From NCBI RefSeq assembly GCF_015354345.1, contig NZ_JADKYS010000001.1, positions 930,001 to 994,000 on the forward strand: 64,000 nt of DNA. Reading direction: 5' to 3'. Below, piece by piece: positions 10,959 to 57,152 of this stretch (positions are counted from its first letter, which is position 1; each line of letters opens with the position of its first letter). The position numbers were made by a program, and so were the translations under genes. The DNA comes from Methylophilus sp. 14 (GTDB lineage Bacteria > Pseudomonadota > Gammaproteobacteria > Burkholderiales > Methylophilaceae). A model generated the notes under the pieces. That model did no database searches, had not been told where the DNA came from, and worked only from the letters and a program-made list of their open reading frames with translations.

Positions 10959-11080
10959 AGTATTTCTGATTAAACGAGAGTGGAGGGTATTTTAACGCGG
11001 ATGAATGTTGGTGATACTAAGTGTTTCAACTTATATGGTGATGTAGCCATAAATCACAAGAGGTTAGAAATTATTGTCTT

Positions 11081-12070
11081 CTATTGGATTGGTACTCTAC
11101 GAATAGCGCGAGCTCTGGCTGTGACAGGTTGCAGCATTTTTAAATGCCATTCAGCATCTGCAAGAAGTGAAGATACCTTCTCATCCGTCAGTAATCTTCT
11201 ATAGCTGTTTAATGTCGTTATCTTCGTCAGTTCTTTACGTATTGTTTTTAAATGTCTTATCCGAATTCCATGTGGGTCTTTTGCGAATGACTCCAATGCT
11301 TTCTCAATCAGGTCGGCAGGAATCTCTCGACAAGCAATAATTTCCGAAGCAACGTCAGCTAGTGGGTCAGGTGGAAACAATTTTTCACCTCCAGAAAACA
11401 TCTCAAGAAAGTATTCACCGATATGTTTTTGATGATTAAATTGCATCATCTTGACATCTGTCCAGCCATCAAAAGCGTGGCAGAATGGGAGCTCAGTCAC
11501 CCAGGCACACTGTTCGGTTGGTCTTGGCAAAGCTTGGGGACCTAGGGGGAAATAGTTATTAAGATTTATTGGGTTGACTCGATAGATGATTCCGGATCCT
11601 GAAGTCATTGGTTGCCAGCCGCTTTTGGTTTCGTAGCAAGTAGCAAAAAATGCGCTTACATTGAAATCATCTGTAAGATCGAGATATCCCGTGGGTATTC
11701 CATAGTGCTGTGCTAGTGCAATTCGATCAAGCTCTAGTTTTTGATTGGCAGCATGTGAGGTAATTGGATGGTGATCGAGTTCTTTGGAAAACCACCATGA
11801 TTGAGCAAGTCTAAGTACAATTTTGGCTTGATCTGAAATAGCATACTTCCATAATTCACCTGTATTTTGAGAGGTCATTCCCCTAGCAATAGAAGGTAAC
11901 ATAGGCGTGTAGCGTTTATTTTGCCCACGATACAAACTTTCTACCGCAAATGGAATTGCTCCTCTCTGATCTTCTTCGGAGTACCAATACCAACTTTTTT
12001 CTCGTCTGTTCTGATGATCAATAAAGTCTTTTGAGATTTCAAGGAGTATTGATGCAGGTACTGTTTGCAT
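11081..12070 (-). CDS. FRG-domain protein
   Basis: 329 residues with an FRG domain: YRGQNKRYTPMLPSIARG (about residues 47-64) and the signature AQHYGIPTGYLDLTDDFNVS with AFFA after it (about residues 139-162). FRG proteins are often found in mobile and defence regions, but their biochemistry is poorly known. Base composition is more AT-rich than the neighbours. It lies beside a broken higA and hicBA, so an acquired accessory role is likely. No membrane segment or signal peptide. Domain call is solid, function unknown. Confidence 0.8.
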   Translation of the reverse strand: MQTVPASILLEISKDFIDHQNRREKSWYWYSEEDQRGAIPFAVESLYRGQNKRYTPMLPSIARGMTSQNTGELWKYAISDQAKIVLRLAQSWWFSKELDHHPITSHAANQKLELDRIALAQHYGIPTGYLDLTDDFNVSAFFATCYETKSGWQPMTSGSGIIYRVNPINLNNYFPLGPQALPRPTEQCAWVTELPFCHAFDGWTDVKMMQFNHQKHIGEYFLEMFSGGEKLFPPDPLADVASEIIACREIPADLIEKALESFAKDPHGIRIRHLKTIRKELTKITTLNSYRRLLTDEKVSSLLADAEWHLKMLQPVTARARAIRRVPIQ

Positions 12071-12121
12071 ATGTAGTCAATACAGTAAAAGTTGCATAGG
12101 CTCAGAGTAAAATAAAGCTTT

Positions 12122-12382
12122 CTAAGCCGCTTTTTGTTCTAAGGGTTTTATTTTAATCAGTGTCTCTGCCATCTGTTCCTTTTGAGTGGCTGTTTCATAA
12201 TCCATTTGTAAGCCAGTCCAAAAGGCATCGTTTAATCCAAAGTACTTGGATAAACGTAAGCTTGTATCAACGGTAATCGCGCGTTTACCGGCAATAATTT
12301 CTGCAATACGCGCTTGTGAAACGCCAATCTCTTTTGCAAGGCGGTATTGTAAGGTTTTAACATATTTATGGTCAGATAAAAG
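12122..12382 (-). pseudogene. HigA-type antitoxin remnant, N-terminus lost
   Basis: The open frame reads HKYVKTLQYRLAKEIGVSQ, then ARIAEIIAGKRAIT, DTSLRLSKYFG and FWTGLQMDYE to a TAG at 12122. This matches the helix-turn-helix and C-terminal part of HigA/VapI-type antitoxins. No start codon precedes it: the frame is closed by a TAA (12383-12385). Upstream in the same frame lies a 23-codon open stretch (12383-12454, MINRLATLLESIK...) that begins inside the hicB stop region. No higB toxin is next to it. Interpreted as a truncated gene; a non-standard start or stop readthrough cannot be excluded. Confidence 0.75.
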
Positions 12383-12443
12383 TTAAAGCTCTCGATGTTT
12401 TGGGGTTAACAGAGACTTGATTGATTCTAAAAGGGTTGCCAGC

Positions 12444-12848
12444 CTATTTATCATGCGCCAACGCCGATAACGCCGCTCTTGCTAGAAAACCACTCCGTGT
12501 TTCGTGATTGCTGGCAACATAATGGTCAATACGATTAAGTACGAACTTAGGCAGGCTGATATTCACGCGCTCTGGTTTTGCATCCAATTCGGTTAAATCC
12601 ACATCGACAAATCCCCAGGCCGCCTCTTTAAACGCTGGCTGAGTTTTCAGCGTTTCAATTTCGCTGACCTTAATATCAACTGATTCACCCAGTTCTAAAA
12701 GAGTTTCGATATGTCCGATAATGGCTTCTTTGGCGTTTCTTAAGGCTTCGTCTACGGTGTCTCCAAAAGAGAAGCAACCAGGGACGTCTGGCACTGTAAC
12801 GCCATAACTGGAGTTGGGGTCTTTGTGAATGGCGATAGGGAATAACAT
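12444..12848 (-). CDS. hicB: HicB-family antitoxin
   Basis: 134 residues. An N-terminal HicB fold (VTVPDVPGCFSFGDTVDEAL) with the degenerate RNase H-like domain is followed by a C-terminal ribbon-helix-helix DNA-binding part (RVNISLPKFVLNRIDHYV). Neutralises HicA and represses the operon. Lies 15 bp downstream of hicA, so the order is toxin first, as is usual for hicAB. Confidence 0.93.
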   Translation of the reverse strand: MLFPIAIHKDPNSSYGVTVPDVPGCFSFGDTVDEALRNAKEAIIGHIETLLELGESVDIKVSEIETLKTQPAFKEAAWGFVDVDLTELDAKPERVNISLPKFVLNRIDHYVASNHETRSGFLARAALSALAHDK

Positions 12849-12863
12849 GCTATTTCCTTTCGG

Positions 12864-13046
12864 TTACTTTAAGCCTGCTTGTTTCAAAATACTACGCACG
12901 GTGCCTAGCGGTAAGTCCTTTTTGGGGTGCGGTACTGTAACCAGGCCAGGTTTGCTTGGGTGCTTTAAATGGTGATGACTGCCTTTTGTTCTGACGATTT
13001 GCCAACCATCTTCGTGCAGCATTTGCAGTAACGATTTGGAGTCCAT
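12864..13046 (-). CDS. hicA: HicA-family mRNA interferase toxin
   Basis: 60 residues, normal for HicA. dsRNA-binding-like fold with the catalytic His in KGSHHHLKHP and the conserved VPHPKKDLPLGTVRSILKQAGL end. Inhibits translation by cleaving mRNA. First gene of the pair with hicB; the promoter should lie between 13047 and 13127. Confidence 0.93.
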   Translation of the reverse strand: MDSKSLLQMLHEDGWQIVRTKGSHHHLKHPSKPGLVTVPHPKKDLPLGTVRSILKQAGLK

Positions 13047-28354: not shown

Positions 28355-28514
28355 TCAGCGTTGACTCGTATTGCTGGCAATAAGTTTTACGTGCGAGCGA
28401 GCTATTCCTGTGAATGATTCAAAATGCGGCCTAATCACGCTGCTTAAAAATGAATTGATTTCGTATAAAAACGCAATATAATGAACTTTAAGTCTATTAA
28501 ATATTAATTTATTG

Positions 28515-28859
28515 ATGTCTAAAAAAACAAATTCACTAGCGAGTGCTAACCCGGATGTGCTCAAGGCATTAGAAACGCTAGGCCTGCGCCTGCGTGCTAA
28601 CCGCGTGGCTTTGGGCTGGACTGTGAAGGAGATGTCAACCCGCTTACTCTGTTCACAGAATACTTACCGGGCGATTGAGGCTGGCAAGCCTAGTGCGAGT
28701 GTGGGCATTATTGCCAATGCACTGTGGCTGTTTGGCCAATTAGACAGTCTGGAGGCTGTTGCGCCTGTGCCCGTAAATGCGAGTGCATTTATTCGCGCCA
28801 GAAAAAAATCTGGCGTAACCGATGCCGCATACATCTCAGAGGACGAGCGTGATTTCTAA
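28515..28859 (+). CDS. hipB: HipB-like XRE-family antitoxin
   Basis: 114 residues. An XRE helix-turn-helix at about residues 20-75 (LRLRANRVALGWTVKEMSTR...YRAIEAGKPSASVGI) is followed by a tail that overlaps hipA. ATG 28515 is used rather than TTG 28512. Represses the operon and binds HipA. Confidence 0.85.
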   Translation: MSKKTNSLASANPDVLKALETLGLRLRANRVALGWTVKEMSTRLLCSQNTYRAIEAGKPSASVGIIANALWLFGQLDSLEAVAPVPVNASAFIRARKKSGVTDAAYISEDERDF

Positions 28860-30090
28860 TCGCACCATTTATATCGGTCTGGCTGCCAGCTTCGATACCG
28901 ATGTCAGGCCCGCGGCGATTTTGAAACTTGCGCGCAGAGGCGTGATTGAGTCCAGCCAATTGGCTTATGGCACCGGATTTTTGGCGGCGCCTGATGCTTT
29001 TGCACTAAACCCGCTACATCTACCGCTTACAAATGAAATCGTCAGCGTGGCGGAGCGTCGCATGCGTGATGGCGGCGCGTTACCGCTGACGCTGTGTGAC
29101 GCATTGCCGGATACCTGGGGCCGCAAGGTGCTCGAGTCGCAGCAGGGCCGCACACTCGATGATATTGATGTGCTGCTACTGACAAACGCCAACCGCGTCG
29201 GCGCCATGACCTTTGCTGAGACCTTGCCGATACCACTGCAAGCGGCGGACAATGCACTGTTCTCGCTTGATGACATGGCGGATGCAGTCAAGCGACTTGA
29301 GGTCGCCATGGAGATTCCCTTACCCTTGCGTCAGCTGCTTAATAAAGGAGGCAGTCTGGGCGGAGCCAGGCCCAAAGCAGACTTCGTTCATGACCATAAA
29401 AGATGGATTGCAAAATTCCCGGCCAGCAGCGATGACCACGATGTGGAGTTGCTGGAAGCCGCGGTGCTCATACTGGCCGCACGCTGTGGCATAGACGTCC
29501 CCCCACACAAGCTGGAGCGGATACATCGCGGACATGCTTTATTGGTGCAACGTTTTGACCGCACTGGCGACGTGGATGCTGAAACCCGCATCCATTATCT
29601 CTCAGCCTCTGCATTGCTGGATGTGCCATATCGCTCGAATGACGGTAGCTATATTGAGTTCGCGCAAGTGATCAGGCAGATTTCAGCCAACCCTGAGCAC
29701 GATTTAAATCAGCTCTACCGCAGAATGGTTTTCAACCTCATCATCGACAATACGGATGATCACGTCAAAAATCATGGCATGCTGCATGTCAAAGGCAATC
29801 AGTATCAACTGTCACCCGCGTTTGATATGGTGATGCAACTGAGCAATGTCCATTACCAGGCCCTGGCTATTTTTCCTGGCAACAATCTTGCCAAACTGAG
29901 TTTAGCCATGCGTGCGGCACCACATTTCGGTATTAACGAACAGGCTGTCAAAGCCGTCATAGAAGACATTGAAGAGAAAGCACGTCTACAGTTATTGCCG
30001 ATAGTAGAAAAGTTGGGTGGTGGTGATGTGTTGATGAAAAGAGTGCAACAGTGCCTGGATAGGCAGCTCGCATTTATTCGAGAAGAGTAA
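28849..30090 (+). CDS. hipA: HipA-family serine/threonine kinase toxin
   Basis: 413 residues from GTG 28849 (MISNRTIYIGLAASF), chosen because an AGAGGA site precedes it and it begins inside the last codons of hipB; an upstream ATG at 28822 is possible but lies deeper in hipB. HipA N-terminal subdomain, ATP-binding loop GGARPKADF, catalytic segment NTDDHVKNHGM and metal-binding SPAFDMV are intact. HipA kinases phosphorylate targets such as glutamyl-tRNA synthetase and cause dormancy. Confidence 0.92.
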   Translation: MISNRTIYIGLAASFDTDVRPAAILKLARRGVIESSQLAYGTGFLAAPDAFALNPLHLPLTNEIVSVAERRMRDGGALPLTLCDALPDTWGRKVLESQQGRTLDDIDVLLLTNANRVGAMTFAETLPIPLQAADNALFSLDDMADAVKRLEVAMEIPLPLRQLLNKGGSLGGARPKADFVHDHKRWIAKFPASSDDHDVELLEAAVLILAARCGIDVPPHKLERIHRGHALLVQRFDRTGDVDAETRIHYLSASALLDVPYRSNDGSYIEFAQVIRQISANPEHDLNQLYRRMVFNLIIDNTDDHVKNHGMLHVKGNQYQLSPAFDMVMQLSNVHYQALAIFPGNNLAKLSLAMRAAPHFGINEQAVKAVIEDIEEKARLQLLPIVEKLGGGDVLMKRVQQCLDRQLAFIREE

Positions 30091-30170
30091 GTAGGGCGCG
30101 CGTGCACAAGCCGAGGGCCATGCGGTTGGCAAAGATGTGATGCTTTTGTGAGATGTTGTGAGCGACGAAT

Positions 30171-30255
30171 AAAGCAAAAGGCCTTGCATTTCTGCAAGGC
30201 CTTTTTTATTTGGCTCCTCAACCTGGGCTCGAACCAGGGACCTACGGATTAACAG
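30171..30255. repeat. Distal attachment site of the tRNA-Asn island
   Basis: 85 bp repeated at 35746-35830 with four differences, all inside the terminator stem. The last 54 bp (30202-30255) are identical to 35777-35830 and contain the 3' 45 bases of tRNA-Asn, including the T arm and CCA. Beyond 30255 the tRNA match stops. This is the displaced tRNA 3' end left by site-specific integration. Confidence 0.92.
30176..30207. terminator. Bidirectional terminator left of the tRNA-Asn island
   Basis: 13-bp perfect stem AAAAGGCCTTGCA-TTTC-TGCAAGGCCTTTT followed by T residues. It ends hipA on + and, before the island arrived, would have followed tRNA-Asn on -. The same hairpin with two compensated base-pair changes is at 35751-35782. 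Confidence 0.85.
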
Positions 30256-30399
30256 AATTTCATTTATAAAGTAAACGTATATTAATCAATTACTTGCAAT
30301 GCCCGCTTATTATTTGAATTAGTTCCACTAAGTGTTGAAACAATGATTTATAAGTTAACTTAAGTACGATTTAGCTACAGTCTTAAATTGAATGGACAA

Positions 30400-31044
30400 T
30401 TAAACTCTTAAATATTTTTTCGGTATTTTTTTGTCGCATAGTGAGTAAAAACAATCTAAGTTTTGTTGTAATTCTGTACCAATTTTTACTGTAGATGTAT
30501 TTTTGATGAATATATCTAAATGGTATCTAGGATGGATATCACCATTATGATTTTCTTCGTCATCGTCATATCGGAAGTAACCATGATCTTCATTAATTAA
30601 AGCAATAAATGCATCTAAGTATTTCGTTGCCTCATAATCCTCTAAACCAAAACTGTCCATTAGGGAAACAAGAATAGCTTCAATTGAAAAGTCTGCCTCT
30701 TGACATGTACTAATAGCATTTCGAAATATTGAAATCAAATAACCATCAACTTCTTGTTTTATTGAATCTGAGTTAAAAAATATTCTGTATCCATCATCCA
30801 CGATTTGAAATGGGACAGACATGGAAAAATAGCCGCTATCTCTTCTAACCACTACACGTCGATAATCTCCAGAATAAATAACAAAGTTATATTCTGGATC
30901 GTAAGTATCAGTTTTCTTATCGTTAAAATGATTAATTATTTCAGCAATAATAAGGATGTTATAGAGGTTATCAAAGATGTCCCTGACAGCTACAAACTTA
31001 TTCAAATAGTAGTCAGGTATTGATTTGAAAAAAAAGGCACTCAT
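30400..31044 (-). CDS. Unknown protein encoded with the island helicase
   Basis: 214 residues, no recognised family, signal peptide or membrane helix. Acidic and aromatic, with a strongly acidic patch RYDDDEENHNGD near residue 170. AT-rich codon use like the helicase and unlike the chromosome. It begins 4 bp inside the helicase stop (ATGA-type overlap), so it is made together with the helicase. A role as effector or specificity partner of the helicase is inference. Confidence 0.65.
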   Translation of the reverse strand: MSAFFFKSIPDYYLNKFVAVRDIFDNLYNILIIAEIINHFNDKKTDTYDPEYNFVIYSGDYRRVVVRRDSGYFSMSVPFQIVDDGYRIFFNSDSIKQEVDGYLISIFRNAISTCQEADFSIEAILVSLMDSFGLEDYEATKYLDAFIALINEDHGYFRYDDDEENHNGDIHPRYHLDIFIKNTSTVKIGTELQQNLDCFYSLCDKKIPKKYLRV

Positions 31045-33038
31045 AGCTTTTTATTCACTTCATATTCAAATTTTAAATAGTTGTTAATGATGTCTTCATC
31101 CAGATCTTCAGTGTCATTTAAGATTGAATTCATCCTGCTTATCAGCTTTGCAACAAGTCGAGGGCTTGCAGGTGGGGTTTTTTCTGCACAAAAATCCTTT
31201 ACAAGTTTCTCTACAGAAAATTGATTTTCTAAAATAATATAGTCTTTCTGATTTTTAATTTCTTCTGCAGATGGGATACGAATATCAATACGATTGTTTT
31301 TTGTCAGATAATCTAGTCCGTTTTTGATCTCTTTGAGTATTCCTTGATTTGCATATTTGCTTAAAACTAAATGGCTTTCAAGAAATGATCTCGCCATCAT
31401 TGTATAGAGGCCATTTCTAAAGGCAGATTGTCTATAAAGATCACTTGCATAACAGATGACAAATGGAAACTCTAAGCCCTTTGCATTGTTGATATTTGAA
31501 ATAAAGAACTTATCAGGACTTCTTGATTTAGTTTCATATGAGACATTTACTGGCCATTTAAATGCATCTTTAACTTTTCCTTCAAGTTCGGATATAGAGT
31601 TATAAACGTAATTATCTTTATCAAGATATATAACAGCAATATCTCCTGGCTGAATGCTAGGAAATCTATGTCGAAGGTCACTTACAATAGAGATTATTTG
31701 GTCGGCAACGCTGTTTTGTTCAAGCTGATGAATGTAGGTGCTTGGTGTCTCTACAGGAATATCTTCAAACCTCCTTAGCGGTTCTCTGCTCAAGATTGCT
31801 CGGCCGTTTCCAGCTTCATGGTAGGTGTAACCACAGGTATTCCACTCCTCATCTTTCAACCATCTTAGTACGGGCTTTTCATAGAGCCCCATACCTAATG
31901 CATGTGAAAACATTAAGTTTTTAGGATCTGTTCTATAACATTTCTTCAAAACTATGTCAGCCTTATTCACGCTGTCATCAATAGCTCTAAAAATGTTTTG
32001 GAAGACGTCGCCGGCAACAAAGATTTTTTTTCTTGTAACTAACTCACACAACTCTATAAAACTTGGCGCAAAGTCTTGACTTTCATCTATAAATACATAA
32101 TCGAAAACATATGTAGATTCAAGCTTAGATGCTTTAATCTCCTCTAGGGCTAACTTACATATAGCATCAAAATTTCCCGCCATGAGAGAGCGAAACGGAA
32201 TTCCAAGGGAGTGACAAATATGCCTGTACATTCCTGAGTTGGGGTCTTTACCACTTCCCCAAGAGTGAAAACAAAAGAGTTTATTATTCCAGTCAATTTG
32301 TCTTTCAACTCTCATAAAATCGAAGAAATCAGGTATTCTAATTCTCATTGTCGAAGCAAGGATTTTATTAAAACATGTGAAGGCAATCTTGGCTTCGATA
32401 TCTTTCGAATAAATTTCTTTCAATTTGTGAAGTAATAGTTCAGTTTTACCTGAACCAGCCAAGCCTTGGATTACAAGCTTTTTAGGCGTATGGTTTTTAA
32501 AAACAAAGCTAGTCTGATCAGTGTCAAAGAGTATGATTTTTGATTTAATCGCGTCAAGCGAGTCAACAGTTTCGAGGTTAATTTTTTTAGTATCGTTAAT
32601 ACTCCCCACAACTAACGAAATTATTAAGTCGATTGTTCGTATATCACGTATGTTTTCTATCTTTAGCTGATTAAAGTCAATTTGTTTTTTTTGTAAGCTT
32701 ATAAAGCAGTTTTCCCAATTTTTTCTTCTACCAATTTTTTCTCGATATTTGTATTTTTCTGATAAAAATGAAATGTCATCAATAAATTCTTCGGTGTATT
32801 CGTTAAAGCTATCATCTGTACCAGCCTCTCCAAGATTAAGGAAGAACGGGCGCATGCCAGATACGAAAACAACAACAGCGTTGTCGTAATCGTATGTTGT
32901 ATCTTCGATAGTTAAAGGTTTGGATAATACATATGTTTGCTTTTTAGCCTGTTCTGAAAGCTCCTCTAAGCTTTGGGTTAGACCGGCTCTGTCAGTTAGT
33001 TCGCGTGCGTTTTGTTCAAAAAAGCAATAACCACTCAT
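31041..33038 (-). CDS. UvrD/Rep-like superfamily 1 helicase, putative defence gene
   Basis: 665 residues. A unique N-terminal domain (about 1-180) is followed by a UvrD-like core: Walker A GLAGSGKTELLLHK at about 190-205, motif II FIDESQDFAP, motif III-like FVAGDVFQNIFR, motif IV region KKCYRTDPKNLMFSH, and late motif NNAKGLEFPFVICYA with TMMARSFLESHLVLS. No nuclease motif is visible. First gene of a two-gene unit on the integrative element. Such helicase pairs on small islands are often anti-phage systems, but this pairing matches no named system I can recognise. Confidence 0.8.
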   Translation of the reverse strand: MSGYCFFEQNARELTDRAGLTQSLEELSEQAKKQTYVLSKPLTIEDTTYDYDNAVVVFVSGMRPFFLNLGEAGTDDSFNEYTEEFIDDISFLSEKYKYREKIGRRKNWENCFISLQKKQIDFNQLKIENIRDIRTIDLIISLVVGSINDTKKINLETVDSLDAIKSKIILFDTDQTSFVFKNHTPKKLVIQGLAGSGKTELLLHKLKEIYSKDIEAKIAFTCFNKILASTMRIRIPDFFDFMRVERQIDWNNKLFCFHSWGSGKDPNSGMYRHICHSLGIPFRSLMAGNFDAICKLALEEIKASKLESTYVFDYVFIDESQDFAPSFIELCELVTRKKIFVAGDVFQNIFRAIDDSVNKADIVLKKCYRTDPKNLMFSHALGMGLYEKPVLRWLKDEEWNTCGYTYHEAGNGRAILSREPLRRFEDIPVETPSTYIHQLEQNSVADQIISIVSDLRHRFPSIQPGDIAVIYLDKDNYVYNSISELEGKVKDAFKWPVNVSYETKSRSPDKFFISNINNAKGLEFPFVICYASDLYRQSAFRNGLYTMMARSFLESHLVLSKYANQGILKEIKNGLDYLTKNNRIDIRIPSAEEIKNQKDYIILENQFSVEKLVKDFCAEKTPPASPRLVAKLISRMNSILNDTEDLDEDIINNYLKFEYEVNKKL

Positions 33039-33358
33039 AGGTTATATCTCCGAGATCTTTTGTATTTGTACATCCTAAAGTATAAATCATGATTTTTTTT
33101 TATGTTACCTATGCCCCCCATCTTGTTTCAAGAGAGCTGTAGTTATATGATTTGCTCGTCACAGCAACTTGTCAGCAAGACAAGGCGCCCTAGTATGTGA
33201 TGTGCGCTGATAGATAAATGGTGCGGGCAAATCAAATCCTAGGCCCTTCAGGGGAGAGGTAAAGCCAAGTCCCGATAAGCCTGTCTACTCAGATAAGCCT
33301 CCATCAGGGATAAGCAGGATGCTCTAGTACCTGTGACTTCATTGTCTTTTAACCGACG
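33039..33358. other. Intergenic region with iteron-like repeats, candidate replication origin
   Basis: 320 bp between the divergent helicase and replication-initiator genes. Three GATAAGC repeats occur at 33274-33280, 33292-33298 and 33309-33315, spaced 18 and 17 bp, ending 43 bp before the initiator start. The spacing, close to two helical turns, and the position fit initiator-binding iterons. Promoters for both directions must lie here. No open gene seen. Confidence 0.5.
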
Positions 33359-34531
33359 ATGGGGTCATGTGTTTTCCGAAATTATTACGTTGGCCCCTTC
33401 GTCACAGATACGAATGGAGTCATCGTGAATCACAATAAATTATCTTTTCAAAATTTCTCGTCAGATTCAGATTTGTCAGCGCAAAGTGGCATGTTGCGAC
33501 GGCAACATGCGCTTGGCGGTGACACCTCAGAAGCTCCCGGTGTAGTAATACCGGGGGAAAGTTTGAATCACCAACCATGCGGTGATGGCTCTGAAAGTTT
33601 AGAGCTAACTGTATATGGTAAAAGAGCCGCTATTATTGCTCACCCTTTGCCTTCTGAATTCACTCCTGGATATGCGGCAATTACCGATTACCTAAATTGC
33701 TCTTTCCGTTTACCTGAAAACTTCAACCCTAATCGATTCTTTGAAATCTTTGCTAGTGTCGCTGGTGAGAGATTCTCAAAAGTGCGCAATCGCGGCAAAG
33801 GAATGAATGGGTACGAGCGTTCATTTGATATGGGCGATGAAGGTGCCAAGTTTTGCTTTGGAGGCCAGAGCAATACAGGGTTAATCATGTTGCCTGGTCA
33901 GGCCTGCCATACCATTAAGGACTGGTCTGTGTTGGTTTCTTTTCTTAGAGACAATTTAGACGCACGTATAACGCGCTGGGATGGTGCTGTAGACGATTTT
34001 GACGGCATGCATTCTGTTGATTGGGCAGTTGAACAATATCTACTTGGTAACTTCACCAATGGCGGCAATAAACCTTCATGCAAACAGAACGGCAACTGGA
34101 TAGACCCTGACGGCAGCGGGCGCACATTTTATGTGGGTAAACGTGAAAACGGAAAAATGATGCGCGTTTACGAAAAAGGGATGCAATGCGGCATGCCTTT
34201 TCATCCTTGGGTAAGGTGGGAGCTTGAGCTGCATAATGTGGATAGGGTTATTCCCTGGGAAGTGCTTTCTGATCCTGGAAAGTACGTTGCAGGGGCATTC
34301 CCAAAGGTGCTTGGTTGGATTCACGATGAAATGTCTCGAATCCGTACTATCAGAACTGAGACAACCCTGTCATATGAAACCCTGGTTAAGTACGCTGCAA
34401 CTGCTTATGGTCGGCTGATTAACACCATGTTAGAAGTGGAAGCGTCGCCGGATGATGTGATTAATCGTCTGCGATTAGAGGGCGTCCCAAAGCGCCTTGG
34501 TTTAATGAAACTCTTGGAGGGTAAACAGTAA
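33359..34531 (+). CDS. Replication initiation protein, filamentous-phage/rolling-circle type
   Basis: 390 residues as read from ATG 33359. The first ~90 residues are poorly structured, and ATG 33491 is a possible shorter start. The core resembles Rep_trans/RstA-like replication initiation factors: DYLNCSFRL, RITRWDGAVDDFDG, TFYVGKRENGKMMRVYEKG, WVRWELELHN. These enzymes nick DNA to begin rolling-circle replication of filamentous phages and small plasmids. Followed without a gap (TAA then ATG) by the HTH gene. It suggests the island can replicate after excision or derives from a filamentous phage. Confidence 0.85.
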   Translation: MGSCVFRNYYVGPFVTDTNGVIVNHNKLSFQNFSSDSDLSAQSGMLRRQHALGGDTSEAPGVVIPGESLNHQPCGDGSESLELTVYGKRAAIIAHPLPSEFTPGYAAITDYLNCSFRLPENFNPNRFFEIFASVAGERFSKVRNRGKGMNGYERSFDMGDEGAKFCFGGQSNTGLIMLPGQACHTIKDWSVLVSFLRDNLDARITRWDGAVDDFDGMHSVDWAVEQYLLGNFTNGGNKPSCKQNGNWIDPDGSGRTFYVGKRENGKMMRVYEKGMQCGMPFHPWVRWELELHNVDRVIPWEVLSDPGKYVAGAFPKVLGWIHDEMSRIRTIRTETTLSYETLVKYAATAYGRLINTMLEVEASPDDVINRLRLEGVPKRLGLMKLLEGKQ

Positions 34532-34855
34532 ATGAACACACTCACCCTGCAAGAGGCTGCGAAGTTTCTCAAGATTCACCCTGTTACATTATCCATTAAA
34601 GCCGCTGCTGGTGAAGTGCAAGGGGCAAAGGTGGGTAAGAGATGGGTTTTTGTAGATGTTGACCTGGTTGAATACATCAGGTCACAATACAAAGCGCGGG
34701 CGTTGCAGGGTGAACGAAAGGAAACAATATGTCACTCTTCAAACGCAAAGATTCGTCCTTCTGGTGGCTCAAAATTACTGTCAGTGGACGAACAATACAA
34801 CGTAGTACTGGGACTGACGACAAAATCAAAGCCCAGGAATACCACGACACGCTAA
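34532..34855 (+). CDS. Excisionase-like helix-turn-helix protein
   Basis: 107 residues. An MerR/excisionase-type HTH_17 domain in the first ~50 (LTLQEAAKFLKIHPVTLSIK...VGKRWVFVDVDLVEYI). The remaining ~55 residues are low-complexity and overlap the start of the integrase gene by 127 bp in another frame. GGAGGG before the start overlaps the end of rep. A role in excision or control of rep/int is inferred from position. Confidence 0.75.
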   Translation: MNTLTLQEAAKFLKIHPVTLSIKAAAGEVQGAKVGKRWVFVDVDLVEYIRSQYKARALQGERKETICHSSNAKIRPSGGSKLLSVDEQYNVVLGLTTKSKPRNTTTR

Positions 34856-35745
34856 AAGCGCAGTTGTGGCAGCAAGAGCGGTTAGGTGTAAAACCTGATC
34901 GAACTTGGCGAGAAGCGGTTGTACGTTGGACAAACGAAACCTCTGATAAAGCTACGCACAAAGAGGACATTCGAAAGCTGGCCTGGATGCATCAGTTTTT
35001 AGGCGATTTAACGCTTGATGCGGTAAACCAGGAAGTGATTGAGCGTGTTCGGGCGGCTAAACTCAAAGAGGCTACTAAGTCTACGACCAATCGTTATTTG
35101 GCATTGCTTCGAGCGATTCTCATTCGTGCACGAGATGAATGGGAATGGATTGAAAAAGCGCCAAAAATACGGCTCTTTAAAGAATCTAATATACGAGAAC
35201 GGTCTTTGACTGCTGAACAAGTCAATCTGTTGTTAAGTGAGTTGCCGTTGCATCAACGTGAAACAGTGTTGTTTGCTTTGTGTACAGGGCTTAGGCAGCA
35301 GAATGTATTGCAGCTTGAATGGGCACAGGTCAATTTTGAATTGAAGCATGCCTGGGTAAGAGCAACACATTCTAAAAATCGAAGGCCGATTGCAGTACCG
35401 TTAAATGAAACCGCAATCAATGTTTTAAAGCGCCAAGTAGGTAAACATGAAACTCGAGTGTTTACTTATGCAGGCAAGCCACTATGCACGGCAAATACCC
35501 GTGCTTGGCGTGCAGCATTGAAAAGGGCGGGAATCACAGATTTTCGCTGGCACGATCTGCGGCATACATGGGCAACCTGGCAACGGCAGGCTGGCACACC
35601 TACACATGAGTTACAGCGGTTAGGTGGTTGGCGTTCTGGTGTAATGGTTGAACGATATGCGCATCTCGCACCAGATCATTTGGCGAATGCTGCAAACCGA
35701 TTAGATTCTAAATTCGAAGGTTACGATTTAGCTACGATGGGCTAG
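34729..35745 (+). CDS. Tyrosine recombinase (integrase) of the tRNA-Asn island
   Basis: 338 residues. Short arm-binding N-terminus (LFKRKDSSFWWLKI), SAM-like core-binding domain, and catalytic domain with Arg in ALCTGLRQQNVLQLEW, HDLRHTWATW (His-x-x-Arg), and the nucleophile Tyr in MVERYAHLAPDH. All catalytic residues are present, so it is probably active. AAAGGA precedes ATG 34729. The stop is one base before the attachment repeat. Confidence 0.95.
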   Translation: MSLFKRKDSSFWWLKITVSGRTIQRSTGTDDKIKAQEYHDTLKAQLWQQERLGVKPDRTWREAVVRWTNETSDKATHKEDIRKLAWMHQFLGDLTLDAVNQEVIERVRAAKLKEATKSTTNRYLALLRAILIRARDEWEWIEKAPKIRLFKESNIRERSLTAEQVNLLLSELPLHQRETVLFALCTGLRQQNVLQLEWAQVNFELKHAWVRATHSKNRRPIAVPLNETAINVLKRQVGKHETRVFTYAGKPLCTANTRAWRAALKRAGITDFRWHDLRHTWATWQRQAGTPTHELQRLGGWRSGVMVERYAHLAPDHLANAANRLDSKFEGYDLATMG

Positions 35746-35830
35746 AAAGCAAAAAGCCTTGTATTTCTACAAGGCTTTTTTTATTTGGCTCCTCAACCTG
35801 GGCTCGAACCAGGGACCTACGGATTAACAG
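35746..35830. repeat. Proximal attachment site (tRNA-Asn 3' end)
   Basis: Copy of 30171-30255. Contains the island-borne terminator and the 3' 45 bases of the functional tRNA-Asn, which the element restored on insertion. Confidence 0.92.
35751..35782. terminator. Island-borne bidirectional terminator
   Basis: 13-bp perfect stem AAAAAGCCTTGTA-TTTC-TACAAGGCTTTTT plus T residues. Serves the integrase on + and tRNA-Asn on -. It differs from the chromosomal copy by two base pairs, each changed on both arms. Confidence 0.85.
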
Positions 35831-35861
35831 TCCGGCGCTCTACCGACTGAGCTATTGAGGA
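35786..35861 (-). tRNA. tRNA-Asn(GTT)
   Basis: 76 bases including encoded CCA. Acceptor stem TCCTCAA/TTGAGGA, D arm GCTCAGTCGGTAGAGC, anticodon loop CTGTTAA (anticodon GTT), T arm CCTGGTTCGAGCCCAGG. Intact and serving as the integration target. Confidence 0.97.
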
Positions 35862-36082
35862 ATCGGTACGTCGTTTGAAGGCGCTATATTACTGAGACCA
35901 CGCCCCTTGGTCAACCACTTTTTGCGAAATATTTTATATTTTTTGTCATTGACAAATCGGCAGCTGGAAATGGCTTGCACACGCCCTGTTTTAAGCAAAT
36001 TTTTGTAATATTCATGGCCTCATGCCTTGACAGCAGCGGGTTTGTCAGGGTGCTGACTTATAATATTCGCCAGGAGAGTACG

Positions 36083-42974: not shown

Positions 42975-43368
42975 GCCATTAAAAGTTATACCTTCAATTC
43001 AGATTGCCTGAATGCTGGCGGAGAAGGAGGGATTCCTGAAAGTCGGCAGAGATTTATTAATAATCAATTACTTAGATTGCATCTGGTGAGGCTGTGTGGC
43101 TCACTATTGTGTACCACTTTCATATGGTAACTATTCAAATCGCCCATTGCAATACCTCAGCGGGGTTCGCGTACCCACGGGGATTCGAACTGCGGTATAA
43201 GGGATGTACTTAACTCAATGACAGCCGTTGTGTAATATATCTTCCAACCTCCGAGAGGTCCTCCGAATGCAAGGCGTAACGTGTGTTATTCGAAGCCTCC
43301 CAGCAAGATGGAGAGTAGAGTGGATTGTGTTCTTTTTAACTACTGATAATAATTCGAGGGGAGATTTT
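42975..43368. other. Gene-free region with tRNA-Ser fragment
   Basis: 394 bp without a credible gene. Contains a 22-bp copy of the tRNA-Ser 3' end (43014-43035) and, just beyond it, a CAATTACTTAGATTGC stretch resembling CAACTACTTAGGAATCGC that precedes the intact tRNA. The last ~150 bp are probably the promoter region of the lipoprotein gene. Confidence 0.6.
43014..43035. repeat. Distal attachment remnant of the tRNA-Ser element
   Basis: GCTGGCGGAGAAGGAGGGAT plus TC, identical to 44236-44257, the 3' end of tRNA-Ser(CGA) with its CCA. The match stops in the T loop. Marks the far end of a decayed integrative element. Confidence 0.75.
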
Positions 43369-43863
43369 TTGTACAAGGTTCTGATTGTTATGGGTCTAGC
43401 ATTACTAAGCGCGTGTTCTGCAACAGGCCCAAAGTTTAATGCTGTGTCGCACCCAACAAATGACTCACTGATTTATGTCTATCGACCAGACCTTTTTCAG
43501 AATGGGGCAATTTCTCCAGGGATAGTAGTAGACAATGAAGAGAGGTTGTTACTGCAAAACAATGGCTACACATACTTCTACTTACCTCCTGGGCAACATC
43601 AATTCTCTATTTTGCTGAGTGACCGCTATACACCGGCAGAGCCAACAAAGTTATTAATGGAAGCTGGTACTGTTTACTATTTGAAACTGGTCACAGGTAA
43701 TATTTTCAATAGTATGCCTGGGGTGGGATTAAGCGTTAACCGCAAATTTGGATTGATAAGTGTTGAGGAGGAAATAGGCAAGGCAGAAATACAAGATTGC
43801 CGTTACCTTAATCCTAGTGAGTCAAAGAAGTTTTCAAAAAGTTATTTTCTGGAGTCTAATTAA
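43369..43863 (+). CDS. DUF2846-like lipoprotein
   Basis: About 164 residues from TTG 43369, chosen because GAGGGGAG lies just upstream and a signal peptide with lipobox LLSACS begins there; ATG 43390 is a shorter alternative. The mature part (LIYVYRPDLFQNGAISPGIV...FYLPPGQHQFSIL) resembles DUF2846 lipoproteins, with a short beta-rich domain. Function unknown. Sole intact gene of the tRNA-Ser element. Confidence 0.7.
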   Translation: MYKVLIVMGLALLSACSATGPKFNAVSHPTNDSLIYVYRPDLFQNGAISPGIVVDNEERLLLQNNGYTYFYLPPGQHQFSILLSDRYTPAEPTKLLMEAGTVYYLKLVTGNIFNSMPGVGLSVNRKFGLISVEEEIGKAEIQDCRYLNPSESKKFSKSYFLESN

Positions 43864-43870
43864 CCATAGA

Positions 43871-43897
43871 GCCCTCAAGGATAAACTCCAAGAGGGC
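43871..43897 (+). terminator. Weak terminator after the lipoprotein gene
   Basis: GCCCTC/GAGGGC stem, 8 bp after the stop codon, with only a broken T-rich run downstream. Confidence 0.45.
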
Positions 43898-44023
43898 TTC
43901 GTGCTTTTTAGTCTTAATCTACCGTGCCTAATAATGCTTTAGGCGTCTGCGAAGGGGCCTTAGGCTAGACTTTAGGATTGGCCGAGGGTAAGTGTGGGCA
44001 AGACCTCTTGAGCGTGCCTTGGA

Positions 44024-55858: not shown

Positions 55859-56314
55859 ATGAGCATCGCGCAAAACAAAAAAGCGTTTTTTGATTACTTT
55901 ATCGAAGAAAAGTACGAGGCCGGCCTGGTACTTGAAGGCTGGGAAGTCAAAGCCATACGCGATAACCGCACCAACCTTAAAGAGGCTTATGTGGTGGTGA
56001 TGCGTGGCGAGTTATACCTGATCGGTTGCCATATTACGCCACTGGGCGCTGCCTCTACACATATTCGTCCAGATGCCATCCGTACACGCAAGTTGCTGTT
56101 GCATCGTGAAGAAATCGACAAACTGATTGGCAAGGTGGAACGCGCGGGTTACACCATTGTGCCGCTGGATATGCACTTTACACGTGGCCGCATCAAAATC
56201 CAGATTGGCCTGGCTAAAGGTAAAAAGCAACACGACAAACGAGATACTGAAAAAGAACGTGACTGGAAGCGTGAGCAAAATCAATTGTTAAAAAACAAGC
56301 AACGTAGCCGCTAA
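55859..56314 (+). CDS. smpB: tmRNA-binding protein SmpB
   Basis: 151 residues. [20 protein letters not shown] near the N-terminus, [20 protein letters not shown], and the basic tail [20 protein letters not shown]. Brings tmRNA to stalled ribosomes. The ssrA gene is not in this window. Confidence 0.96.
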
Positions 56315-56342
56315 CACCAGGCTTCAATGCTGACTTTTCCTA

Positions 56343-56373
56343 CGCATCCTCTTGGATGCGTTTTTGTTTTTTT
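56343..56373 (+). terminator. Terminator of smpB
   Basis: CGCATCC-TCTT-GGATGCG followed by a T-rich tract, 28 bp after the stop codon. Confidence 0.8.
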
Positions 56374-56541
56374 GGCCCTCAGTTTAGTTATCCTGCGGTA
56401 CGGTTGTTTTCGTAAATTATAAATATGTATAGTTTATGTTAATATTTGTTTGTTGGCGAGATGGTCTTGCTGGAGAATATTGGCTTGAGAGGCGCACTTG
56501 CTCAACGTTTTTTGATTTTTTTAAAAAAAAGGAACTTTGAT

Positions 56542-56760
56542 ATGCGTGAGTTAACACTTTCTGAAGTAGACGCAATTTCTGGCGGCTATTCGATTATTCC
56601 TGAATTTCCGACGTCTTTGGGCTTGGTTGGCGGTATTGCAACTATCTTAACGGCCACAGGTTTTATTATTGGCGTGGCAGGTGTCAATCTCGCTTTGGGT
56701 TTAAATGAAGCCCTGGGGATTGCAACACCGCGTGCGACATATCCAATTTTAGATATCTGA
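56542..56760 (+). CDS. Double-glycine-leader bacteriocin-like peptide 1
   Basis: 72 codons from ATG 56542, after AAAGGAAC. The leader MRELTLSEVDAISGG ends in GG, matching class II bacteriocin/microcin leaders cut by peptidase-containing ABC exporters. The expected mature peptide of 57 residues (YSIIPEFPTSLGLVGG...) is hydrophobic and Gly/Ala-rich, with a helix across IATILTATGFIIGVAGVNLA, and has no Cys. A longer in-frame reading from 56446 is rejected because the leader begins here. No exporter or immunity gene is adjacent. Paralogue at 56952. Confidence 0.75.
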   Translation: MRELTLSEVDAISGGYSIIPEFPTSLGLVGGIATILTATGFIIGVAGVNLALGLNEALGIATPRATYPILDI

Positions 56761-56951
56761 TTAAAACCGCAGACACACAGCGCGACAGAGCTCTTTTTTT
56801 AAATCAATATTGTTAATATTTATTAATAAATGTTGTTTTTATGTCATTAAATTGTGTTAACCTAAATTGGTTGGCGTTGACTTGAGTGGAGGAGATTCAC
56901 TGCTAAGCAGCCCGACTAATTTGATTAACAATCTAAAAAAAGGAAAAAATA

Positions 56952-57152
56952 ATGCGTGAATTAACAATGACTGAAGTGGAAGTGGTTTCTGGTGGCTTTT
57001 CCATTATTCCTGAGTTCCCAACATCATTGGGTCTGTTGGGTGGTGTGGCCACAATTTTGACTGGCGCTGGTTACATCATTGCCGTGGCAGGGACTAACCT
57101 GGCACTGGGCTTGAATGAAGCATTGGGTATTGCAACACCACGCCCGTTCTAA
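56952..57152 (+). CDS. Double-glycine-leader bacteriocin-like peptide 2
   Basis: 66 codons from ATG 56952, after AAAGGAAAAA. Leader MRELTMTEVEVVSGG. The 49 residues after GG differ from peptide 1 at eight positions; the end is shorter (TPRPF). The 191-bp gap to peptide 1 is AT-rich and looks like a separate promoter region. A good terminator follows. Two similar peptides suggest a two-component bacteriocin or a recent duplication. Confidence 0.75.
   Translation: MRELTMTEVEVVSGGFSIIPEFPTSLGLLGGVATILTGAGYIIAVAGTNLALGLNEALGIATPRPF

Follow-up and report, generated by a model that had tools for sequence, protein, structure and literature searches.

A pair of overlapping genes in Methylophilus sp. 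14, encoding a UvrD-like helicase of superfamily 1 (SF1) and a small partner protein, is the cargo of an integrative element at a tRNA-Asn gene within a window of 64,000 nucleotides (the whole stretch of DNA that was analysed). We moderately favour the interpretation that both genes form a module for defence against phages which is a diverged sister of Helicase+DUF2290, travels as exchangeable cargo of a small Rep-Xis-Int element and relies on activation of the partner by the helicase. Because the pair recurs across bacteria and is distantly related to a known anti-phage pair, it is probably a branch of known bacterial immunity; the two proteins look like distant relatives of a pair with tested anti-phage activity, and judged from these sequence relationships a defence role of their branch is plausible. 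If this holds, this kind of immune system, a helicase plus a small protein, would have a second and widespread branch in the pair, which is named after two Salmonella genes and whose small protein in the window escapes the PADLOC models tested.

Both proteins belong to named families. The helicase matches the NCBIfam equivalog NF053713 (STM2767 family DEAD/DEAH box helicase) with 854.2 bits (6.7e-257, residues 4-660 of 665; cut-off 550 bits) and the small protein matches NF053714 (STM2766 family helicase-associated protein) with 174.7 bits (2e-51, residues 3-213 of 214; cut-off 70 bits). An E. coli genome annotation carries the pair under the same names. The initial annotation, made from the sequence alone, had placed the small protein in no recognised family and had called the pair a candidate undescribed system; neither statement is supported in view of these scores, which lie far above the curated cut-offs, and of the best-matching PADLOC model, that of the Helicase+DUF2290 helicase. 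The two NCBIfam families give names only. A search of open-licence papers found no function for STM2766 or STM2767, nor a mechanism for Helicase+DUF2290, and in one paper STM2767 figures as the end point of a deletion; as far as this literature shows, both families are functionally uncharacterised. In the Pfam scan UvrD_C_2, UvrD-helicase and AAA_19 exceeded their cut-offs in the helicase and no domain did so in the small protein. The helicase stop and the start of the small gene overlap by 4 bp, exactly as first described, and the AT-rich character of both genes is borne out by their GC contents of 0.352 (helicase) and 0.305 (small gene), and of 0.309 and 0.242 at third codon positions, compared with 0.46 for the rep, xis and int genes of the element and 0.51-0.52 for the flanking host genes cydA, aat and hipA.

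The relationship to Helicase+DUF2290 is carried mainly by the helicase. This system was described from the P4-satellite hotspot and is reported to inhibit T7 specifically (Rousset et al., 2022; PMC9122126). The window helicase scores 106.5 bits on the PADLOC model PDLC03002 in two stretches, the best of them at 161-349, and the next model reaches 32 bits; a canonical helicase (locus L111) reaches 1094 bits, with positions 1-705 of 707 aligned. PDLC03002 was identified as the helicase partner of DUF2290 because the gene next to this canonical helicase scores 335 bits on PDLC02999. Such a helicase lies upstream of all 15 collected DUF2290 proteins with complete open reading frames (ORFs); L110, a DUF2290 match truncated by its locus end, is not among them. 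A direct profile comparison aligned the window family with the DUF2290-partner helicases over 544 columns, at 8e-35 with 6 sequences and at 6e-41 with 15; the two helicases are homologous.

For the small proteins the homology is weak. Against 6 DUF2290 sequences the profile probability was 22.8% (P 9e-4); against 15 the comparison gave P 2.6e-4 and a score of 34.0 with the motif in register, a score reached by none of 200 column shuffles (mean 13.8, maximum 29.4), and the reversed alignment scored 14.6. The shared core consists of R-x-D-x-D, then HPxxH, then K/R-I. Its R, D, D, H, P and H are present in 39/39 STM2766 proteins and in 15/15 DUF2290 proteins, except for the second D (13/15). With the E limit at 1, PDLC02998 picks up five of the 39 STM2766 homologues (best 3.4e-4). 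The two systems further share a small protein of similar size, encoded directly after the helicase. They differ in the length of the helicase (open frames of 716-760 aa compared with 665 aa in the window), in its N-terminal part, for which the profile comparison alone was not significant (P 0.051, probability 1.0), and in STM2766 residues D177 and K187, which align with T and R in DUF2290. As the window small protein gave no match to the DUF2290 models tested in Pfam and PADLOC (PF10053, PDLC02998 and PDLC02999), the pair is regarded as a sister variant and not as a member of the system. Set side by side, the two branches leave only a handful of residues as candidates for the active site, which opens the mechanism of Helicase+DUF2290 to a direct test by point mutation.

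The two genes are consistently found together. A profile scan of genome contigs with an alignment of 7 small proteins yielded 34 loci, and 33 of them have a same-strand helicase of this family upstream, whole, cut or broken (contig ends truncate L057, L071 and L081, and the helicase of L064 is fragmented). In the 34th locus (L060, Vibrio, 1-254) only the last helicase codons remain before an intact-looking small gene; the junction is identical to L059 over 90 bases and the sequence further upstream is unrelated. With small-gene starts chosen nearest to the helicase stop, the 4-bp overlap recurs in 15 of the 33 loci, most others have the genes within about 20 bases and L074 has them spaced by about 230. 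Both genes occur in the same order in all 14 viral contigs from IMG/VR, with the helicase split in L090 and L098 and the small gene split in L103. The same order is seen in six of six annotated loci that were opened, namely five of the eight plasmid records matching the helicase over at least 80% (39 plasmid records match it in all) and one of the 37 E. coli genomes, among 5426, with a DNA match to it. Since gene order is kept in 33/34 genome loci, 14/14 viral loci and 6/6 annotated loci, the pairing exceeds chance, and the conservation in other mobile contexts that the initial annotation had asked about is supported. Distances between helicases and between partners correlate over 36 loci (Spearman 0.76, reached in 0 of 999 permutations). 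A tblastn search of the GenBank phage collection with both proteins returned nothing at E 1e-5.

The record titles of the 34 loci include Pseudomonas, Vibrio, Xenorhabdus, Klebsiella, Rhizobium, Methylobacter, Blautia, Exiguobacterium, Sporosarcina, Porphyromonas, Chitinophaga and Coriobacteriaceae. We take the genera from Pseudomonas to Methylobacter to be Pseudomonadota, Blautia, Exiguobacterium and Sporosarcina to be Bacillota, and Porphyromonas and Chitinophaga to be Bacteroidota. The distribution of the pair is nevertheless patchy; within the genus of the host the helicase is present in one of 22 genomes.

The element that carries the pair is complete. It extends from 30171 to 35830 (about 5.6 kb), as deduced from the bounding 85-bp repeat, from empty sites and from a shared identity boundary. 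The repeat copies are 95% identical, and the right one spans the 3' 45 bp of the tRNA-Asn gene and a terminator-like stem. The site is empty in the congeners G015 and G007, where a single repeat copy separates hipA from the intact tRNA and an aminotransferase gene. In two elements, that of the window and that of a further congener (G008), the two ends cease to be identical at one shared position within the anticodon loop. Apart from a Rep_trans initiator, an HTH_17/excisionase-like protein and a tyrosine integrase (Table 1), the helicase and the small gene are the only genes on board, so that the description of the pair as sole cargo of a minimal tRNA-Asn element proved correct. As hipA also adjoins the empty sites of the congeners, the hipB/hipA-like genes outside the element (28512-30090, plus strand) are host context. 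The G008 element combines the same att sites and Rep-Xis-Int backbone (int 96%, xis 86% and rep 78% identity) with a different cargo, a single 388-aa ORF (L029 5937-7103, minus strand), and this Rep is present in 2 of the 22 genomes of the genus.

Table 1. Features of the integrative element and its target site (positions in the window).
Feature	Position	Strand	Remarks
attL, copy of the 85-bp repeat (tRNA-Asn 3' part and its terminator)	30171..30255		direct repeat; same boundary in G008
Terminator-like stem in attL	30176-30205
STM2766-family helicase-associated protein gene	30400..31044	(-)	214 aa, ATG start
STM2767-family SF1 (UvrD-like) helicase gene	31041..33038	(-)	665 aa, ATG start
Intergenic region between the divergent helicase and rep genes, presumed site of both promoters	33039..33358		basis: position only
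Rep_trans replication initiator with relatives in inoviruses	33359..34531	(+)	PF02486 4.1e-29; phrog_453 1.5e-62
HTH_17 / excisionase-like protein	34532..34855	(+)	PF12728 5.2e-8; phrog_2907 excisionase 4.6e-7
Tyrosine integrase	34729..35745	(+)	PF00589 1.6e-30; phrog_1 3.4e-62; ORF as listed, overlaps the preceding gene, true start undecided
attR, 85-bp repeat overlapping the tRNA-Asn 3' part	35746..35830
tRNA-Asn(GTT), integration target, intact	35786..35861	(-)	ARAGORN; Rfam RF00005 68.7 bits

The helicase motifs are intact. SF1 motif residues are invariant in the 36 aligned homologues, for example G197-K198-T199 with the Walker A lysine K198, D318-E319-Q321-D322, Q347, R369, K520-G521 and R550 (the broken genes of L064 and L071 and the cut or truncated ones of L057, L060 and L081 were left out of this alignment). 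The predicted structure (predicted local distance difference test, pLDDT, 86.0; predicted template modelling score, pTM, 0.78) has SLFN11/SLFN14, Ighmbp2, Dna2, PcrA, Upf1 and UvrD as top fold matches among the 50 listed; since their global TM-scores, normalised by query length, are only about 0.28-0.38, they are read as indicating an SF1 helicase and no more. For the N-terminal 130 residues every Pfam match stayed below cut-off (best E 0.15), which agrees with the distinctive N-terminal domain first described; a degenerate nuclease-like domain suspected in this part was dropped on this result and on the non-significant N-terminal profile comparison.

In the small protein, twelve residues are invariant in 39/39 aligned sequences, the broken loci L064 and L071 being left out: R63, P78, Y156, R158, D160, D162, H171, P172, H175, D177, K187 and G189. 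The predicted structure (pLDDT 91.2, pTM 0.87) places strands at 157-161, 174-181 and 184-190, so that R158/D160 fall on the first, H175/D177 on the next and K187/G189 on the third of three consecutive strands. With an i,i+2 spacing, each of these residue pairs should lie on one face of its own predicted strand; that all six share one face of the sheet is our inference. The invariant set looks like an active or metal-binding site in this model. A structure search of the model found nothing in the PDB at E 0.001 or better (best E 0.78) and nothing significant in BFVD (best E 0.037). Of the structure and profile checks suggested at the outset, those on the helicase indicated an SF1 helicase and those on the partner gave a weak link to DUF2290, with no significant PDB match to its fold.

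From these features we propose a helicase-gated action of STM2766 on nucleic acid, by likeness to HamAB (Hachiman), whose sensor helicase is reported to activate a nuclease (PMC12278908). The SF1 helicase would patrol or load on abnormal nucleic acid that arises during infection (for instance free ends, single-stranded tails or stalled forks), and its movement, driven by ATP, would activate STM2766 or deliver substrate to it; STM2766 would then act on the nucleic acid via its invariant R/D/D/H/H/D/K residues, and phage replication would be blocked, possibly with loss of the cell. It is tentatively conceivable, though we would not expect it, that STM2766 and the distant DUF2290 proteins found a new enzyme family, with a fold unseen in the PDB, in which the R-x-D-x-D, HPxxHxD and K-x-G residues process nucleic acid upon activation by a dedicated SF1 helicase. 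If so, the two genes would encode a widespread immune machine with an effector chemistry unprecedented among solved structures.

Known systems of similar architecture were compared. Gabija likewise combines a UvrD-like helicase with a partner, and the window helicase has weak GajB matches; these reach at most 25.8 bits and the small protein matches no GajA OLD/TOPRIM nuclease family, in line with the earlier failure to match the pair to Gabija. Assignments to Gabija and to NERD-helicase systems were dropped, their PADLOC matches being weak beside PDLC03002, and Hachiman was dropped for want of any PADLOC match. Hachiman and AbpAB are also two-gene systems of helicase and partner, and serve here solely as an analogy for a helicase sensor with an effector (PMC12278908; PMC10732053). 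HamB and AbpB are Ski2-like (PMC12278908), whereas the window helicase belongs to SF1, and neither HamA nor AbpA models in PADLOC matched the window pair. AbpAB (YfjL/YfjK) was set aside because the K-12 proteins AbpA and AbpB measure 538 and 729 aa and because BLASTP of them showed no similarity to the pair (best E 4.4 and 1.2).

The strongest competing explanation keeps the defence function and makes the helicase itself the effector, directly attacking or remodelling phage replication intermediates, with STM2766 as a non-catalytic DNA-binding or loading subunit. The helicase is indeed the better conserved of the two (mean column identity 49% compared with 32%), the best-probability PDB matches of STM2766 among the 50 listed are small helical or winged-helix (WH) domains (8h7a WH, 0.57, root-mean-square deviation 2.8 over 48 columns; 6lui WH, 0.41), and a part of about 50 residues is matched by short uncharacterised phage proteins with a probability of up to 0.98. 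These partial winged-helix matches, weak as they are, leave some room for a DNA-binding role; all PDB matches, however, have E of 0.78 or more. Charged and histidine residues that are invariant in 39/39 proteins across several phyla, six of them with i,i+2 spacing on three consecutive strands, resemble an active or metal site more than a DNA-binding surface, and we consider this explanation rather unlikely.

The pair might instead serve no defence at all and be a DNA-repair or element-maintenance module that acts on the single-stranded intermediates of small replicating elements. Such intermediates are expected with initiators of the Rep_trans family, one of which the element encodes, and five of the six opened annotated copies lie on plasmids. 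On the other hand, the same backbone carries another cargo in the G008 element and hence does not need the pair, and the six annotated copies, in a prophage or on plasmids, show no Rep_trans-type backbone among their listed neighbours; this alternative is improbable. An addiction pair of the toxin-antitoxin type, with STM2766 as a toxin held by the helicase, would suit two overlapping genes on mobile elements and is nonetheless very improbable, given the unusual size ratio (665 to 214 aa) and ATPase partner, the lack of any toxin family above cut-off for the small protein, and the small ORFs kept beside a broken or truncated helicase in L064 and L060, hardly what one would expect of a free toxin if these ORFs are expressed.

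The genomic contexts of several of the opened copies speak for the favoured reading as a defence module. The E. coli copy (L003 14610-24954) lies behind tail-fibre genes at the tail end of a prophage and is followed in a row by genes matching AbiTii (3e-33), an Aga-type restriction endonuclease (4e-28), IetA (5e-77) and IetS (5e-27). The Pantoea plasmid copy lies near a PDC-S32 protein and a PemK/MazF-family gene, the Lacticaseibacillus and Lactococcus plasmid copies lie near restriction-modification genes, and the Salmonella copy is on an IncHI2 plasmid with a fljBA-hin region and integrase genes. In a survey of neighbours (22 of the 34 loci, up to 3 nearest genes on each side, 130 of 131 called genes), 122 PADLOC families were matched at 1e-20, compared with 29 for a control of 20 arbitrarily chosen regions in other genomes (138 of 139 genes); 12 loci, mostly with short flanks, and one edge gene per set were dropped. 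Among the 25 families listed for each set, 21 of the test set were methyltransferase models with 2 members each and 24 of the control were GajB or DRT-helicase models with one member each. The Pfam families of the same neighbours (25 of 103 listed) include integrases (5) and cytosine methylases (2).

Several observations weigh against a defence module of this kind. The neighbour survey is weak and suggestive only, because redundant families and not proteins were counted and the taxa of the control differ; several genome neighbours among the listed Pfam families are housekeeping genes, and the Acinetobacter plasmid copy is accompanied by HicB and transposases, with no clear defence neighbour. 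The pair is rare in its own order, with 1 of 300 genomes above the cut-offs. The profile probability linking the small protein to DUF2290 is only 42% even with 15 sequences, the window small protein matches no PADLOC model, and a nuclease role for it is backed by neither a catalytic family nor a solved fold.

Further observations concern the element and its surroundings. In tblastn searches its Rep matched 39 phage records, 15 of them named Inovirus, and the listed Stenotrophomonas ones are annotated rstA; a search of the host genome for the inovirus Zot family gave no match. Although no coat or Zot gene was seen in it, the element is possibly a filamentous-phage satellite or relic. A promoter scan of 30100-35900 found 17 candidates and was no richer than shuffles (mean 14.9). 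The 388-aa cargo ORF of the G008 element has no Pfam match at E up to 10 and no PADLOC match at 1e-5, and is another candidate defence gene. In G005 (L034 3274-8211) a small element of another type reuses the tRNA-Asn site; it has a putative serine recombinase (assigned by eye), a DUF2726 protein, an Mrr-type (Mrr_cat) endonuclease and a Rep_trans-like protein that scores 26.7 bits, just below cut-off. G016 (L030/L031) has a larger island at the same tRNA-Asn, where two copies of the 85-bp repeat enclose about 37 kb. Elsewhere in the window, further low-GC stretches (0.41-0.43) lie at 11001-13000, 43001-44000 and 56001-57000.

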